From NCBI RefSeq assembly GCF_024398015.1, contig NZ_CP073747.1, positions 124,001 through 188,000 of the forward strand: a stretch of DNA of 64,000 nucleotides, in the 5' to 3' direction. This DNA is from Kordiimonas sp. SCSIO 12610 (lineage in GTDB: Bacteria > Pseudomonadota > Alphaproteobacteria > Sphingomonadales > Kordiimonadaceae). The position numbers were made by a program, and so were the translations under genes. The notes beneath the pieces were generated by a model. The model ran no database searches. It was not told the DNA's origin and saw only the letters and a list, made by a program, of their open reading frames with translations. Positions 45,244 to 56,802 of the stretch are shown here, one piece after another; within the stretch, counting starts at the first letter, position 1, and each line of letters begins with the position of its first letter.

Positions 45244-45840
45244 TTAAGCCTCTATCATATCATGGAGTTTTAAAAAGTTCAGCAGTGGTATCAAAGGCAT
45301 ACCCAAAATGGTGAAATAGTCACCAGAAATTCTGGAGAACAGTTGTACCCCTCGGTCTTCAATATGATAACATCCGACAGATCCCAAAATATCTTCACCG
45401 GCTTTACCCAGATATGCCTCAATGTCAGGCATAGTCATCGGATGCATTGTCAAACGCACTTCATCAACAAACCGCCAAATGGGTTCCCCCTCAAAATAGA
45501 CAACGGCAGCAGAAAATAGCGAATGGGTCTTTCCTTGAAGTTCCATTAACTTCGCTGCCGCATCCTCTAAATTGTTTGCTTTGGAATAAATCTGATTGTC
45601 ACATTCCAGTACCTGATCAGATCCGATAACATAATTATCAGGATTGCCTAAAGAAACAGATCTTGCTTTATAATCTGCAAGGATATCCGCCAGATCACGC
45701 GCTGAAACACCATTTTCAAGCAAGCTAGCTTTCAATCCTTCTTCATCAATCATTGCTTTTTGCGTTTCAAAAGCAACAGATGCTTTTTTGAGCATAGAAT
45801 TACGTGCAAAGCTTTGTGACGCTAAGATTAATTTTGGCAT
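45244..45840 (-). CDS. maf: Maf-family nucleoside triphosphate pyrophosphatase
   Basis: A 198-residue Maf protein. The LILASQSFARNSML start, DYKARSV, the GSDQVLECDNQIYSK site and the VGCYHIEDRGVQLFSRISGDY C-terminal motif match the family, which removes modified or non-canonical nucleotides. Lies between ppsR (58 bases) and aroE (two bases). Confidence 0.95.
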   Translation of the reverse strand: MPKLILASQSFARNSMLKKASVAFETQKAMIDEEGLKASLLENGVSARDLADILADYKARSVSLGNPDNYVIGSDQVLECDNQIYSKANNLEDAAAKLMELQGKTHSLFSAAVVYFEGEPIWRFVDEVRLTMHPMTMPDIEAYLGKAGEDILGSVGCYHIEDRGVQLFSRISGDYFTILGMPLIPLLNFLKLHDMIEA

Positions 45841-45898: not shown

Positions 45899-46765
45899 TT
45901 ATGGCTTTTGTCTAGCTTCCAGCCAACTTTTATAGCGGTTCATAATTGATGCTGCTGTTTCCTCAATAGAACGGCGGGTTACATCAATTGTTGACCAACC
46001 ACGTTCGTTACAATAACGCCTGCATTGTTTCGTTTCGTCTTTAATCAAGTCGATATCCGTATAGTCGGCTTCTTCATCTTCATTGATTGATCTTAGTCGA
46101 TTAGTCCTAATCTGGACCAAACGTTCAGGACTTGCCGTTAAGCCAATAACAAATTTATCCGGTAAATTATCAAGAACTGCTGGCATAGGGCAATTAGGGA
46201 CAAAAGGAACATTTGCTGTTTTAAACCCCTTGTTTGCAAGATAGATACTTGTCGGGGTTTTCGATGATCTTGAAACCCCAATCAGGACAATATCAGCGAG
46301 AGGAATATCTTCGGCGAGTTGCCCATCGTCATGAGCCATTGTAAAATGTACCGCGTCAATCCGGTCAAAATAATTGGCATCCATAATATGTTGACGGCCG
46401 GGGTTATGACTTGCCTGCATTCCAAAATATGACCCTAGTAAACTAATAACAGGATCAAGAATGGATAGCACAGGCAGGTTTGCTTCCTTACAGTTTTGTT
46501 CCAAAGTTGCCTGTATCTCAGGGTTAACAAGCGTGTACATAACAAGACCAGGCTGCTCCTTGATATCTACCATCAAGCGTTCCATTTGGGTGGCTGTTCT
46601 GATTAACGGCCAAAAATGTTTGGAGACATTAACACCTTCAAACTGAACCAAAGCAGCAGCGATTATTGCTTCAAGCGTTTCACCGGTTGAATCTGATACC
46701 AAATGCAAATGGAACTTTCGGTCTTCATTTAAAGTGCTTATCAAACTGTCTGTCACGATCACCAA
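45899..46765 (-). CDS. PPDK/PEP-synthase regulatory kinase-phosphorylase (PPSR family)
   Basis: About 288 residues of DUF299: the FHLHLVSDSTGETLEAI start (residues 17–33) and the P-loop-like GVSRSSKTPTS near residue 158. The family both phosphorylates and dephosphorylates pyruvate phosphate dikinase or PEP synthetase, setting the direction of pyruvate–PEP flux. The homologue is RP001 of Rickettsia, which likewise borders the origin. The true start is uncertain: TTG 46765, GTG 46762 or GTG 46756 are all possible, since no ATG lies before the conserved part. Confidence 0.92.
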   Translation of the reverse strand: MVIVTDSLISTLNEDRKFHLHLVSDSTGETLEAIIAAALVQFEGVNVSKHFWPLIRTATQMERLMVDIKEQPGLVMYTLVNPEIQATLEQNCKEANLPVLSILDPVISLLGSYFGMQASHNPGRQHIMDANYFDRIDAVHFTMAHDDGQLAEDIPLADIVLIGVSRSSKTPTSIYLANKGFKTANVPFVPNCPMPAVLDNLPDKFVIGLTASPERLVQIRTNRLRSINEDEEADYTDIDLIKDETKQCRRYCNERGWSTIDVTRRSIEETAASIMNRYKSWLEARQKP

Positions 46766-46817
46766 CTTTTCTGTCTTCCGACCATCTTTATCCTATTGAT
46801 AACGTGAGGGAAGACTC

Positions 46818-46826
46818 TGTGGATAA
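46818..46826 (-). promoter_or_regulatory. DnaA box 1
   Basis: TGTGGATAA, i.e. a perfect TTATCCACA on the minus strand. It is the most distant box from hemE, just upstream of the PPSR gene, and abuts a GACTC (GANTC) site at 46813. Confidence 0.85.
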
Positions 46827-46965
46827 CTTATCAATAAATAGGGGATATTTAAAATTAGCGTTTTATCCTCAATCTTTGAAAGAGTCTTCATATCACTAAT
46901 TGATTTTATCCCTTGATGAATAATAATAAAGATATTTAAGTATCATATTCATATCTTTAAAATTT

Positions 46966-46974
46966 TTATCCACA
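46966..46974 (+). promoter_or_regulatory. DnaA box 2
   Basis: Perfect TTATCCACA in the middle of the AT-rich region. Confidence 0.87.
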
Positions 46975-47040
46975 AATAACTGTTATGTAAAATTTTGATT
47001 TTAAAGAATAAAATTAATTCATCCTCGTTCTTCAGTGTTT

Positions 47041-47049
47041 TTATCCACA
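47041..47049 (+). promoter_or_regulatory. DnaA box 3
   Basis: Perfect TTATCCACA; first of a tight group of three boxes within 65 bases. Confidence 0.9.
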
Positions 47050-47072
47050 ACAATTCTTTCTAGTGACTTTCT

Positions 47073-47081
47073 TGTGGATAA
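47073..47081 (-). promoter_or_regulatory. DnaA box 4
   Basis: TGTGGATAA, a perfect box in reverse orientation, 32 bases from the start of box 3. Confidence 0.9.
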
Positions 47082-47096
47082 AATCTGTAAAACTGG

Positions 47097-47105
47097 TTAT
47101 CCACA
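47097..47105 (+). promoter_or_regulatory. DnaA box 5
   Basis: Perfect TTATCCACA, the box nearest to the A/T-only tract, 27 bases away, as expected for the box that starts DnaA filament growth. Confidence 0.9.
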
Positions 47106-47132
47106 GTTTTCACAGGCAATAACTACAATCAC

Positions 47133-47162
47133 AATATTATTATATATAAATATATATAATTA
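47133..47162. other. Candidate DNA-unwinding element of oriC
   Basis: Thirty consecutive bases contain only A and T (TATATAAATATATATAAT in the centre), immediately beside the cluster of DnaA boxes 3–5. Position and composition fit the site where strands open. The same tract also lies about 50 bases upstream of hemE, so part of it may act as that gene's promoter. Confidence 0.75.
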
Positions 47163-47213
47163 GGTAGTTAGCTTTGTATTATGTATTCAAGATAAAAGAT
47201 TGAAAGTTAGAGA

Positions 47214-48245
47214 ATGACAAAAATCCTGCTTGAGACTCTCAAAGGAAACCCTTCGGATCGTGTCCCTTTCTGGTTTATGCGACAAGCAGGGCGTTATTTA
47301 CCTGAATACAGGGAAATCCGTCAGAATGCGCCTTCTTTTATGGATTTTTGTTACAATCCTGATCAGGCGACTGAGGTAACACTTCAACCAATTCGTCGGT
47401 ACGGTATGGATGGTGCTATTCTTTTTGCAGATATTCTCGTTGTTCCTGATGGTCTTGGACAGAAGGTTTGGTTTGAAGCTGGTCATGGTCCTAAATTAAC
47501 ACCTGTAAACACTGAAGAAACCTATGCTGAATTAAGCCTTAATGGATTTCATGATAAAGTCGGTAATGTTTACGAGACTGTTTCAAGGCTTTCAAAAGAA
47601 CTTCCTGAGGAAGTAACGCTTATCGGGTTTGCTGGTGCACCCTGGACTGTTGCAACCTATGTGATTGAGGGTGCTGGTAGTAAAGACCATGCAGCTGTAA
47701 GGCAAATGGGGTATGGAAACCCTGAATTGTTTGGGAAAATTCTCGACCTTCTAGTGGATGCAACATCAGAGTATCTCTGTGCTCAAATTGATGCAGGCGC
47801 TAATGTCGTACAGATTTTTGATAGCTGGTCTGCGGCGATCCCTGAACCTTATTTCCATAAATGGATTATTGAACCAACACGCGAGATTGTTGCGCGAGTT
47901 CGTGCGAAGCATAATGAAACACCAATCATTGGATTTCCAAGGCTTTCAGGCGCAATGTTAGAAACATATGTTTTAGAGACAAAAGTTGATGGGGTTTCTC
48001 TGGATACAGGGGTTCCGCTTGATTGGGCGCGCGACAGTGTTCAACGCCATGTGTGTGTACAAGGAAATATGGATCCGCACCTTGTTGTCTCAGGCGGTGA
48101 TGCAATGGTGAATGAGGCAACCCGTATTCTGGACACTTTAAAAGGCGGCAGTCATATATTTAATTTGGGTCATGGTTTTGTTCCGCAAACACCACCGGAA
48201 AATGTTGCATTACTTTCTGAAACAATTAAAAATTTCAGACGTTAG
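47214..48245 (+). CDS. hemE: Uroporphyrinogen decarboxylase
   Basis: A 343-residue enzyme that removes four carboxyl groups from uroporphyrinogen III. The N-terminal PFWFMRQAGRYLPEYR (catalytic Arg pair) and GAILFADILVVPDGLG (catalytic Asp) are present, as is GFAGAPWTVATY. First plus-strand gene to the right of the origin. In Caulobacter the hemE promoter lies inside the origin and its transcription interacts with initiation; the arrangement here is the same. Confidence 0.98.
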   Translation: MTKILLETLKGNPSDRVPFWFMRQAGRYLPEYREIRQNAPSFMDFCYNPDQATEVTLQPIRRYGMDGAILFADILVVPDGLGQKVWFEAGHGPKLTPVNTEETYAELSLNGFHDKVGNVYETVSRLSKELPEEVTLIGFAGAPWTVATYVIEGAGSKDHAAVRQMGYGNPELFGKILDLLVDATSEYLCAQIDAGANVVQIFDSWSAAIPEPYFHKWIIEPTREIVARVRAKHNETPIIGFPRLSGAMLETYVLETKVDGVSLDTGVPLDWARDSVQRHVCVQGNMDPHLVVSGGDAMVNEATRILDTLKGGSHIFNLGHGFVPQTPPENVALLSETIKNFRR

Positions 48246-50874: not shown

Positions 50875-52236
50875 ATGACAAGTCAGGAAACAATTTTTGC
50901 GCTCGCGAGCGGTGCTGGTACTGCGGGCGTCGCTGTTGTCAGGATTAGTGGCCCTAAGTCCTTATCAGTATTGGAAAATATTACAAAAAAACCTTTACCA
51001 AAGCCAAGGTATGCAAGCCTTCGTGAATTAACGGATCAAAATGGAAATCGCCTTGATCAGGCATTGATCCTGATATTCCCTACCCCAAACAGCTTCACAG
51101 GCGAAGATGTTGTTGAACTTCATTTACATGGTGGCAGATCGGTGATCGAGGGTGTTCTGACAACGCTTGGTTCGTTTGAAGGTTTGCGTATGGCCGAGCC
51201 TGGCGAGTTTTCGAGACGTGCCTTTGAAAATGATAAAATGGATCTAACTGCTGTCGAGGGGCTTAATGATCTTATTCATGCACAAACACTAGCGCAGCGC
51301 ACACAGGCACTTGCTCAAATGGATGGCGGCTTGCGTGAAATTTATGAAGGATGGCGCAGTCAATTGCTTGGCTATCTTGGTCATTTGGAAGCGGATATAG
51401 ATTTTCCTGACGAAGATTTGCCAGAAGGTGTTGCTGGTGCTGTAAAGCCCAATATATTGAAGTTTAAAAACGAAATTATACAGTATTTGGATGATAATAG
51501 GCGGGGGCAAGTAATTCGCGATGGGTTTAAAGTTGTCATACTCGGTGAGCCAAATGTTGGTAAATCAACGCTTTTAAACACACTAGCAAAATCGGATGTA
51601 GCAATTGTTTCTGATGAAGAAGGAACAACGCGTGACACAATCGAAATTCAGTTGGACTTGGGTGGGTATCCTGTAAGACTGATTGATACGGCTGGTATCA
51701 GAAATACAGATAATGCAGTAGAAAAAGAAGGTATTAGACGAGCCTTTGATAAAGCAAATGATGCGGATTTAAAATTGGTACTTGTTAGGGCTGATCAATG
51801 GCCTAAAATTCCTAAAACACTTATGGGAATTATTGACGAGAAAACACTGATTATCATTACAAAGTCCGACACTGTTGATGATAGTGCAATGTTTCACGTG
51901 GAACAATTGGATCAAAAATTTACAATATTTAGTATTCAATCAATTTCTGTTAGGAATAAATTGGGTATCGATGAGTTATTTAAAAATCTTTCGTCATATA
52001 TAGCTGACCAGATGGATGGTCGTGATTTGCCGTCTTTAACCCGACTTCGTCACCGATCAGCGCTAGAAACCTGTATTGAACATTTAGAAAGATTTGAAGA
52101 TAACGCAGGTTTTGACGCAGTGCTTGCTGCGGAAGATATTAGAATGGCTGTCAGGTCCCTTGGAGAGATTACTGGCCGTGTTGATGTTGAAGATATGTTG
52201 GATATTGTATTTTCAGATTTCTGTATTGGAAAATAG
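50875..52236 (+). CDS. mnmE: tRNA modification GTPase MnmE
   Basis: 453 residues: formyl-folate-binding N-terminal domain (with TGEDVVELHLHGG), helical domain, inserted G domain with GEPNVGKST (224–232) and DTAGIR, and the C-terminal CIGK (450–453). With MnmG it makes the (carboxymethyl)aminomethyl group on wobble uridine 34. One imperfect parS site (51890–51905) lies within the gene, encoding MFHVEQ. It starts 105 bases after the divergent ogt. Confidence 0.98.
   Translation: MTSQETIFALASGAGTAGVAVVRISGPKSLSVLENITKKPLPKPRYASLRELTDQNGNRLDQALILIFPTPNSFTGEDVVELHLHGGRSVIEGVLTTLGSFEGLRMAEPGEFSRRAFENDKMDLTAVEGLNDLIHAQTLAQRTQALAQMDGGLREIYEGWRSQLLGYLGHLEADIDFPDEDLPEGVAGAVKPNILKFKNEIIQYLDDNRRGQVIRDGFKVVILGEPNVGKSTLLNTLAKSDVAIVSDEEGTTRDTIEIQLDLGGYPVRLIDTAGIRNTDNAVEKEGIRRAFDKANDADLKLVLVRADQWPKIPKTLMGIIDEKTLIIITKSDTVDDSAMFHVEQLDQKFTIFSIQSISVRNKLGIDELFKNLSSYIADQMDGRDLPSLTRLRHRSALETCIEHLERFEDNAGFDAVLAAEDIRMAVRSLGEITGRVDVEDMLDIVFSDFCIGK
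51890..51905. promoter_or_regulatory. parS site 1 (one mismatch)
   Basis: TGTTTCACGTGGAACA differs from the ParB-binding consensus TGTTTCACGTGAAACA at one base. It lies inside mnmE, in frame over Met-Phe-His-Val-Glu-Gln, so its sequence is also constrained by coding. Confidence 0.75.
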
Positions 52237-52237
52237 A

Positions 52238-52253
52238 TGTTTCACGTGAAACA
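52238..52253. promoter_or_regulatory. parS site 2 (perfect)
   Basis: TGTTTCACGTGAAACA, starting two bases after the mnmE stop codon. The symmetry extends by two bases each side, giving a perfect 20-base palindrome. It is the only one of the four that is intergenic. Confidence 0.93.
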
Positions 52254-54993: not shown

Positions 54994-55059
54994 CACTTTA
55001 AAACAGATCAATTGCTACTGGTTCCTTCGAAACCAGTTAAATGTAAGGAGTTCTTAGGG

Positions 55060-55851
55060 ATGGGGACAGACACACATATCATTGCAATCGCAAACCAGAA
55101 AGGCGGTGTTGGAAAAACAACGACAGCCATAAACCTGGCGACTGCAATGGCAGCAGTAGGCAATAAGGTTTTAATTCTTGATCTTGACCCCCAAGGAAAC
55201 GCAAGCACGGGTTTTGGAATTGATAGAATTGCACGTGAAATAACCTCGTATGATGTAGTGCTTGGTGTATCCCCGATCAAAGATGCGGCAATGGAAACTG
55301 AAATCCCAGGACTTTTCATCATTCCGTCAACGGTTGATCTGTCTGGCGCTGATCTGGAACTAGCAGAATTACCTCAACGTAATTTTCGCCTGGCTCAAGC
55401 CTTTGAAAAATATCTAACTGACGCTGATTATGATTATATTTTAATTGACTGTCCGCCCTCGTTATCACTCCTTACAATCAATGCTTTGGTTGCAGCCAAC
55501 TCGGTTCTTGTCCCTCTGCAATGTGAGTTTTTTGCGTTAGAGGGGTTGAGTTTACTGTTAAAAACAATTGAACAGGTTCGTGTTTCCTTAAACCCTGCCC
55601 TTACGATTAACGGGGTTTTACTGACCATGTTTGATAAACGTAATAATCTCTCGGAACAGGTTGCTGATGATGTGCGGGAATATTTGGGGGATAAGGTTTT
55701 TGAAACTGTAATTCCAAGAAATGTTCGAATGTCTGAGGCACCCAGCCATGGAAAGCCGGCACTTCTATATGATCACCGATGTGTTGGAAGCCAAGCGTAT
55801 ATCAAATTAGCGCGGGAAATTCTTGGCCGTCAGGAAATTTTGGCTGCTTAG
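55060..55851 (+). CDS. parA: Chromosome-partitioning ATPase ParA
   Basis: A 263-residue deviant-Walker ATPase. KGGVGKTT at residues 14–21, LDLDPQGNASTG and the later IDCPPSL (Walker B) identify ParA of the chromosomal type. It forms the nucleoid gradient that pulls ParB–parS complexes. ATG 55060 is preferred over 55012, since AAGGAG stands nine bases before it. Confidence 0.97.
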   Translation: MGTDTHIIAIANQKGGVGKTTTAINLATAMAAVGNKVLILDLDPQGNASTGFGIDRIAREITSYDVVLGVSPIKDAAMETEIPGLFIIPSTVDLSGADLELAELPQRNFRLAQAFEKYLTDADYDYILIDCPPSLSLLTINALVAANSVLVPLQCEFFALEGLSLLLKTIEQVRVSLNPALTINGVLLTMFDKRNNLSEQVADDVREYLGDKVFETVIPRNVRMSEAPSHGKPALLYDHRCVGSQAYIKLAREILGRQEILAA

Positions 55852-55899
55852 TGAACGCAGATATATAAATAATAAGAAGAAAAATAAGATAGGAATCCA

Positions 55900-56802
55900 A
55901 TGGTTAGAAAAGGGTTAGGAAAAGGTCTTTCCGCATTACTCGGTGATGATAGACCTGTAGTTGATGCGTTAGAAGACACCAAGGATGGGTCAGCTACATC
56001 CTCAGGACCAGCAAGTGGAAGGCGGCTTCTCCCTATCGAATTTTTAGAGCGCAACAAAGCCCAACCGCGCCATCACTTTGATGAAGACCATTTGGAAGAA
56101 CTTACTAATTCAATCAAGGAAAAGGGCGTATTGCAACCCATTCTGGTGCGTTCAATAGGCGTAGATAAATATCAGATTGTAGCCGGTGAACGCCGTTGGC
56201 GTGCTGCACAAAAAGCGGGAGTTCATGAAGTTCCTGTTATCGTACGAGACCTCGATGATGGTGAAGTTTTACAAGTAGCAATTATTGAAAATATCCAACG
56301 TCAGGATTTATCCTCTGTCGAAGAAGCAATCGCCTTTAAGCGCCTGATGGATGAATTTGGCCATACACAGGAAGGTGTCGCAGAGGTAGTTGGTAAAAGC
56401 CGTAGCCATGTAGCAAACCTTCTCAGGCTTTTAAGTTTACCCGAAGATGTTCAAAAGCTTGTTGATGAAGGTAAGTTATCAATGGGGCATGCAAGGGCTT
56501 TGATTGGTGCTGAAAACCCGAGCGCAATTGCTCGAAGAATTGTTGCCGAAGGTCTTAGTGTCAGACAGGTGGAAGAAATTATTCGGGGTTTGAAAGGGAA
56601 ACAAAAACGCCAAACTGTACGTAAATCCAATGCATCGAATAAGGATGCGGATACAGTTGCCCTTGAAAAAGATCTTAGTGCTGCAATGGGAATGAAAACA
56701 ACGATTGCCCACGAGGGCGAAGGTGGTTCTGTGACAATTCGATATGAAGATTTGGAGCAACTAGACGAATTATGCAGTAAGCTTGGTGTGTGTGGTTTCT
56801 AG
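55900..56802 (+). CDS. parB: Chromosome-partitioning protein ParB
   Basis: A 300-residue ParB. CTP-binding box GERRWRAAQ and ENIQRQDL (near residue 130), the helix-turn-helix EGVAEVVGKSRSHVANLLRLL that reads parS, and a C-terminal dimerisation domain are visible. The N terminus MVRKGLGKGLSALLGDD is the ParA-stimulating peptide. It lies 48 bases after parA. ParB clamps load at the four parS sites just upstream and slide outward. Confidence 0.97.
   Translation: MVRKGLGKGLSALLGDDRPVVDALEDTKDGSATSSGPASGRRLLPIEFLERNKAQPRHHFDEDHLEELTNSIKEKGVLQPILVRSIGVDKYQIVAGERRWRAAQKAGVHEVPVIVRDLDDGEVLQVAIIENIQRQDLSSVEEAIAFKRLMDEFGHTQEGVAEVVGKSRSHVANLLRLLSLPEDVQKLVDEGKLSMGHARALIGAENPSAIARRIVAEGLSVRQVEEIIRGLKGKQKRQTVRKSNASNKDADTVALEKDLSAAMGMKTTIAHEGEGGSVTIRYEDLEQLDELCSKLGVCGF

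Follow-up and report, generated by a model that had tools for sequence, protein, structure and literature searches.

The PPSR-hemE gap as the chromosomal replication origin of a Kordiimonas-related alphaproteobacterium, with a candidate variant DnaA-trio array

Described origins of similar organization

The origins of Caulobacter and Rickettsia occupy the same hemE-COG1806 neighbourhood as the locus analysed here (PMC1914354). In the basal unwinding system of Bacillus subtilis, a DnaA box and a weaker tandem box are followed by a GC-rich gap, by repeated triplets on the strand that runs 3' to 5' away from the boxes, and finally by A/T sequence (PMC6669920, PMC8287927). The strand polarity used here follows the published accounts, in which the trios read 3'-GAT-5' and lie on a 5' tail next to the boxes. 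In the complex formed by B. subtilis DnaA, the middle adenine is bonded by Asn187 and the guanine is held by Arg202 and Glu228; initiation is impaired when the middle A is replaced by T (PMC10721633). Trios lacking a middle adenine were foreseen by Pelliciari et al., who described none (PMC8287927).

The DNA analysed here (the window, 64,000 nucleotides) covers positions 124001-188000 of a single 3,501,651-base contig. The intergenic region between PPSR and hemE in this window resembles Caulobacter crescentus Cori and the Rickettsia hemE-COG1806 origins in its location between divergent COG1806 and hemE genes, its several DnaA boxes and its A/T-rich element (PMC1914354). However, the boxes in this gap are perfect consensus, CtrA sites are absent although CtrA is encoded, and no IHF site is conserved. 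The hemE side of the gap also resembles the basal unwinding system of B. subtilis, with a strong box, a weaker tandem box, a GC-rich spacer, a period-3 array and an A/T tract in the same order and polarity (PMC6669920, PMC8287927, PMC10721633). Unlike in B. subtilis, the array here follows 3'-G(A/T)T-5' without a fixed middle adenine. The features are listed in Table 1.

Table 1. Features of the origin region and its surroundings, in window coordinates
Feature	Coordinates	Strand	Remark
PPSR (PEP synthase / PPDK regulatory protein, COG1806)	45899..46765	-	left flank; family confirmed
oriC (PPSR-hemE intergenic region)	46766..47213	no strand	448 bases, non-coding, 74% A+T
DnaA box 1, perfect TTATCCACA	46818..46826	-	
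Near-consensus DnaA box TTATCCTCA	46863..46871	+	1 mismatch
DnaA box 2, perfect TTATCCACA	46966..46974	+	
DnaA box 3, perfect TTATCCACA	47041..47049	+	
DnaA box 4, perfect TTATCCACA	47073..47081	-	inverted box here conserved in relatives
DnaA box 5, perfect TTATCCACA	47097..47105	+	opens the conserved unwinding core
Weak second box GTTTTCACA	47106..47114	+	TTCACA nearly invariant in the family; GG next
Period-3 array, 3'-GAT GTT AGT GTT-5'	47123..47134	-	variant DnaA-trio candidate
A/T-only tract	47133..47162	no strand	presumed duplex unwinding element; GC-skew minimum here
hemE	47214..48245	+	right flank; family confirmed
parS, perfect	51890..51905	+	further perfect copies at 52238, 52836 and 54405
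parA and parB genes	55012..56802	+	

Identity and position of the origin

PPSR reads leftward from the gap and hemE rightward. The 448 non-coding bases reported between these genes in the preliminary description were confirmed, as were both flanking families. The left edge of the gap may shift by a few bases, because the TTG start codon of PPSR (window 46754-46765) has GTG alternatives at 46762 and 46756. Relatives bear the names Kordiimonas and Kordiimonadaceae in public records, the closest being an uncultured Kordiimonas whose PPSR protein is 93% identical. Searches in and around the gap showed no Rfam families, tRNAs or terminators, and promoter-like sites there occur at the shuffled level only.

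The 3.50-Mb chromosome contains 35 perfect TTATCCACA boxes, and their sole cluster is located in the gap. All five boxes of the preliminary description were recovered, its counts and coordinates proving correct throughout, and the last three span exactly the 65 bases within which they had been placed. The expectation for the whole window is 0.57 perfect boxes, with at least five reached in none of 100 shuffles, and the chance of five boxes in 448 bases is ~7e-15 (Poisson). Elsewhere in the chromosome, the nearest pair of perfect boxes is 4,588 bp apart. The A/T-only run is exactly 30 bases long, as previously described, compared with 16 bases for the second longest run in the window, and it forms the least stable 30 bp of the whole window.

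Chromosomal skew was sampled in 71 stretches of 20 kb, covering ~40% of the chromosome. The GC skew is negative up to the 150-170 kb sample of the contig and has become positive in the 200-220 kb sample; it stays so as far as 1.92 Mb and is negative from 1.95 Mb onward with small interruptions. The reverse switch is thus positioned at ~1.92-1.95 Mb, and the exact antipode of the gap is 1.922 Mb. Calculated base by base within the window, the cumulative GC-skew minimum is a plateau at 47132-47162 that coincides with the A/T tract; for the switch, the 2-unit support interval runs from 46159 to 47461. The keto-skew minimum at 45752 is ~1.4 kb off the GC-skew minimum of the gap, and the skew alone therefore cannot place the site to the base. 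A skew minimum elsewhere on the chromosome had been named as evidence against an origin here; the minimum was found inside the gap and the maximum about half a chromosome away. Within the negative arm, the skew is positive or near zero at contig positions 2.70 and 2.80 Mb, suggesting an inversion or an inserted element. The stretch at contig 2,400,001-2,420,000 has a GC content of 0.334, compared with ~0.46 for the chromosome, and is likely an acquired island. A search for a terminus dif site with an E. coli-like pattern gave no match, which says little because the alphaproteobacterial consensus may differ.

Four perfect parS sites sit 4.7-7.2 kb to the right of the gap, within and around mnmE, mnmG and the next gene, just ahead of the adjoining parAB. 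The genome has no other perfect copies; one-mismatch copies occur at window 61370 and, distantly, at 3.29 Mb. The unique box cluster, the skew minimum with its antipodal maximum, and the nearby parS and parAB thus identify the gap as a hemE-type oriC, almost certainly the single chromosomal origin of this Kordiimonas-related alphaproteobacterium. The origin itself is ordinary for its class, being of the kind seen in Caulobacter and Rickettsia.

Numbering of the contig starts at dnaA, a single-copy gene 170 kb from the gap, and DnaA clusters can regulate genes; an origin at or near dnaA would leave the gap as a DnaA-titration site or a regulatory site of hemE. However, the skew keeps its negative sign past the dnaA end and does not switch until the gap is reached, the perfect boxes form no cluster near dnaA, and the conserved core, parS and synteny all indicate the PPSR-hemE gap. 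An origin at dnaA is rejected on the skew, and we regard it as exceedingly improbable. The replication start of the chromosome, whose record is numbered from dnaA, is fixed at the gap, and position 1 of the record should therefore not be taken as the origin. A related consideration is whether CtrA exerts direct control over the PPSR-hemE origin, as it does in Caulobacter. A CtrA orthologue is encoded at 2,586,816 (75% identical to a Caulobacter CtrA query). However, the gap lacks TTAA-N7-TTAA sites even allowing one mismatch, and the 24 family origins contain no perfect site and fewer sites with at most one mismatch than expected by chance (8 vs. 19). It is therefore unlikely that CtrA represses initiation directly in this genome, and CtrA control of the origin, rejected on the sequence, is given very little weight. 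TTAA-N7-TTAA sites for CtrA are a feature of Caulobacter that is not universal in the class. The CtrA of Brucella likewise does not bind its own origin (PMC2877005).

The conserved core and strand opening

Alignment of the hemE side of the gap within the family showed an inverted box followed by a 48-base core, which consists of a strong box, 3 nt, a weak TTCACA box, GG, a period-3 array of C-W-A triplets and the A/T tract. Conservation of the core extends throughout the family and, in looser form, to much of the class. Of the 29 relatives in which the strong box and the TTCACA box could both be located, 26 have them at a spacing of 12. When this genome and its nearest relative were left out of the training set, the core profile gave its best match in 1.48 Mb of the chromosome at window 47095, with 44.7 bits compared with 8.4 for the runner-up.

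The array is degenerate in this genome because its triplets are GAT, GTT, AGT and GTT. Across the four triplets of the family, the first place is G in 75-88% and the third is T in 75-92%, with A or T and some G in the middle. A spacer of 17 bases separates the strong box from the regular triplets, whereas the published limit for the basal unwinding system is 16, with longer distances allowed when a tandem box is present.

In an alignment of the DnaA of this genome to the B. subtilis structure 8btg, positions 187, 202 and 228 are occupied by Phe, Lys and Glu, respectively. Among the residues holding the trio in B. subtilis (Asn187, Ile190, Ile193, Arg202 and Glu228), the Glu and the Ile/Leu positions are kept, with Arg replaced by Lys and, unlike in the B. 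subtilis system, Asn187 by Phe. Residue 187 is Tyr, Phe or Leu, and never Asn, in all 59 alphaproteobacterial DnaAs examined, being Phe in this family and Tyr in most of the class. The lost adenine reader in DnaA and the lost fixed adenine in the array fit together, although only as a correlation within one class. We put forward, as a hypothesis that is credible but tentative, that hemE-type alphaproteobacterial origins may carry a variant trio, 3'-G(A/T)T-5', with fixed first and third places and A or T in the middle, which would be read by a DnaA with an aromatic residue in place of Asn187, the initiator and the origin code having changed together. If the variant array is real, the basal unwinding system extends to the Alphaproteobacteria with an altered recognition rule. 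Within the literature searched, the only paper mentioning both the DnaA-trio and alphaproteobacteria concerns Epsilonproteobacteria.

Initiation would begin with the binding of DnaA to the strong boxes. On the model of the B. subtilis system, box 5 and the adjacent weak TTCACA box would serve as the starting point of a DnaA-ATP oligomer, which would extend rightward along the minus strand over the array and melt the adjoining 30-bp A/T tract. The helicase would presumably be loaded next, and two forks would depart in opposite directions, a course that the two-armed skew supports.

Alternatively, the gap could serve as the origin but open without the period-3 array, which would then be a consequence of A/C-rich sequence or the site of another protein, with DnaA melting the A/T tract in some other way such as an E. 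coli-like IHF loop-back. The absence of the fixed middle adenine of the DnaA-trio argues for such opening: the published trio rule (at least three middle-A triplets on the minus strand) is passed by 4 of 24 family members compared with 4.9 in shuffles, and the longest middle-A run in the array of this window is 1. One perfect IHF consensus at 46988-47000(-) points in the same direction. However, this match is not conserved, and IHF matches in the relatives are at chance level (2 vs. 1.2 expected). The array, moreover, is kept in place and phase in the family, with a mean longest CWA run of 2.79 vs. 0.67 in shuffles, and, like its B. subtilis counterpart, is positioned directly past the tandem box. 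Opening independent of the array is accordingly judged a real possibility, albeit a somewhat doubtful one.

Gene order and core across the class

Divergent PPSR and hemE enclose a gap of 219-586 bases in all relatives in which the two genes could be identified. The PPSR-ori-hemE order is present in nearly all relatives and in 49 of 60 other alphaproteobacteria in a class-wide sample, and the likeness to the Caulobacter and Rickettsia arrangement pointed out in the preliminary description is thus supported among the relatives and class-wide. Among 83 other alphaproteobacterial gaps, 55 gave a score for the family profile above the 99% level of base-shuffled controls. Since these controls were made by mononucleotide shuffling and the scores at the bottom of the range are weak, the result is to be read as a widespread occurrence rather than as a count. 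Fifty-two of these 55 matches are on the expected strand, for the most part 80-150 bases ahead of hemE. The gap before hemE in Kordiimonas laminariae contains ten GANTC (CcrM) sites, compared with 0-5 in each other gap counted, and methylation control is possible in this species.
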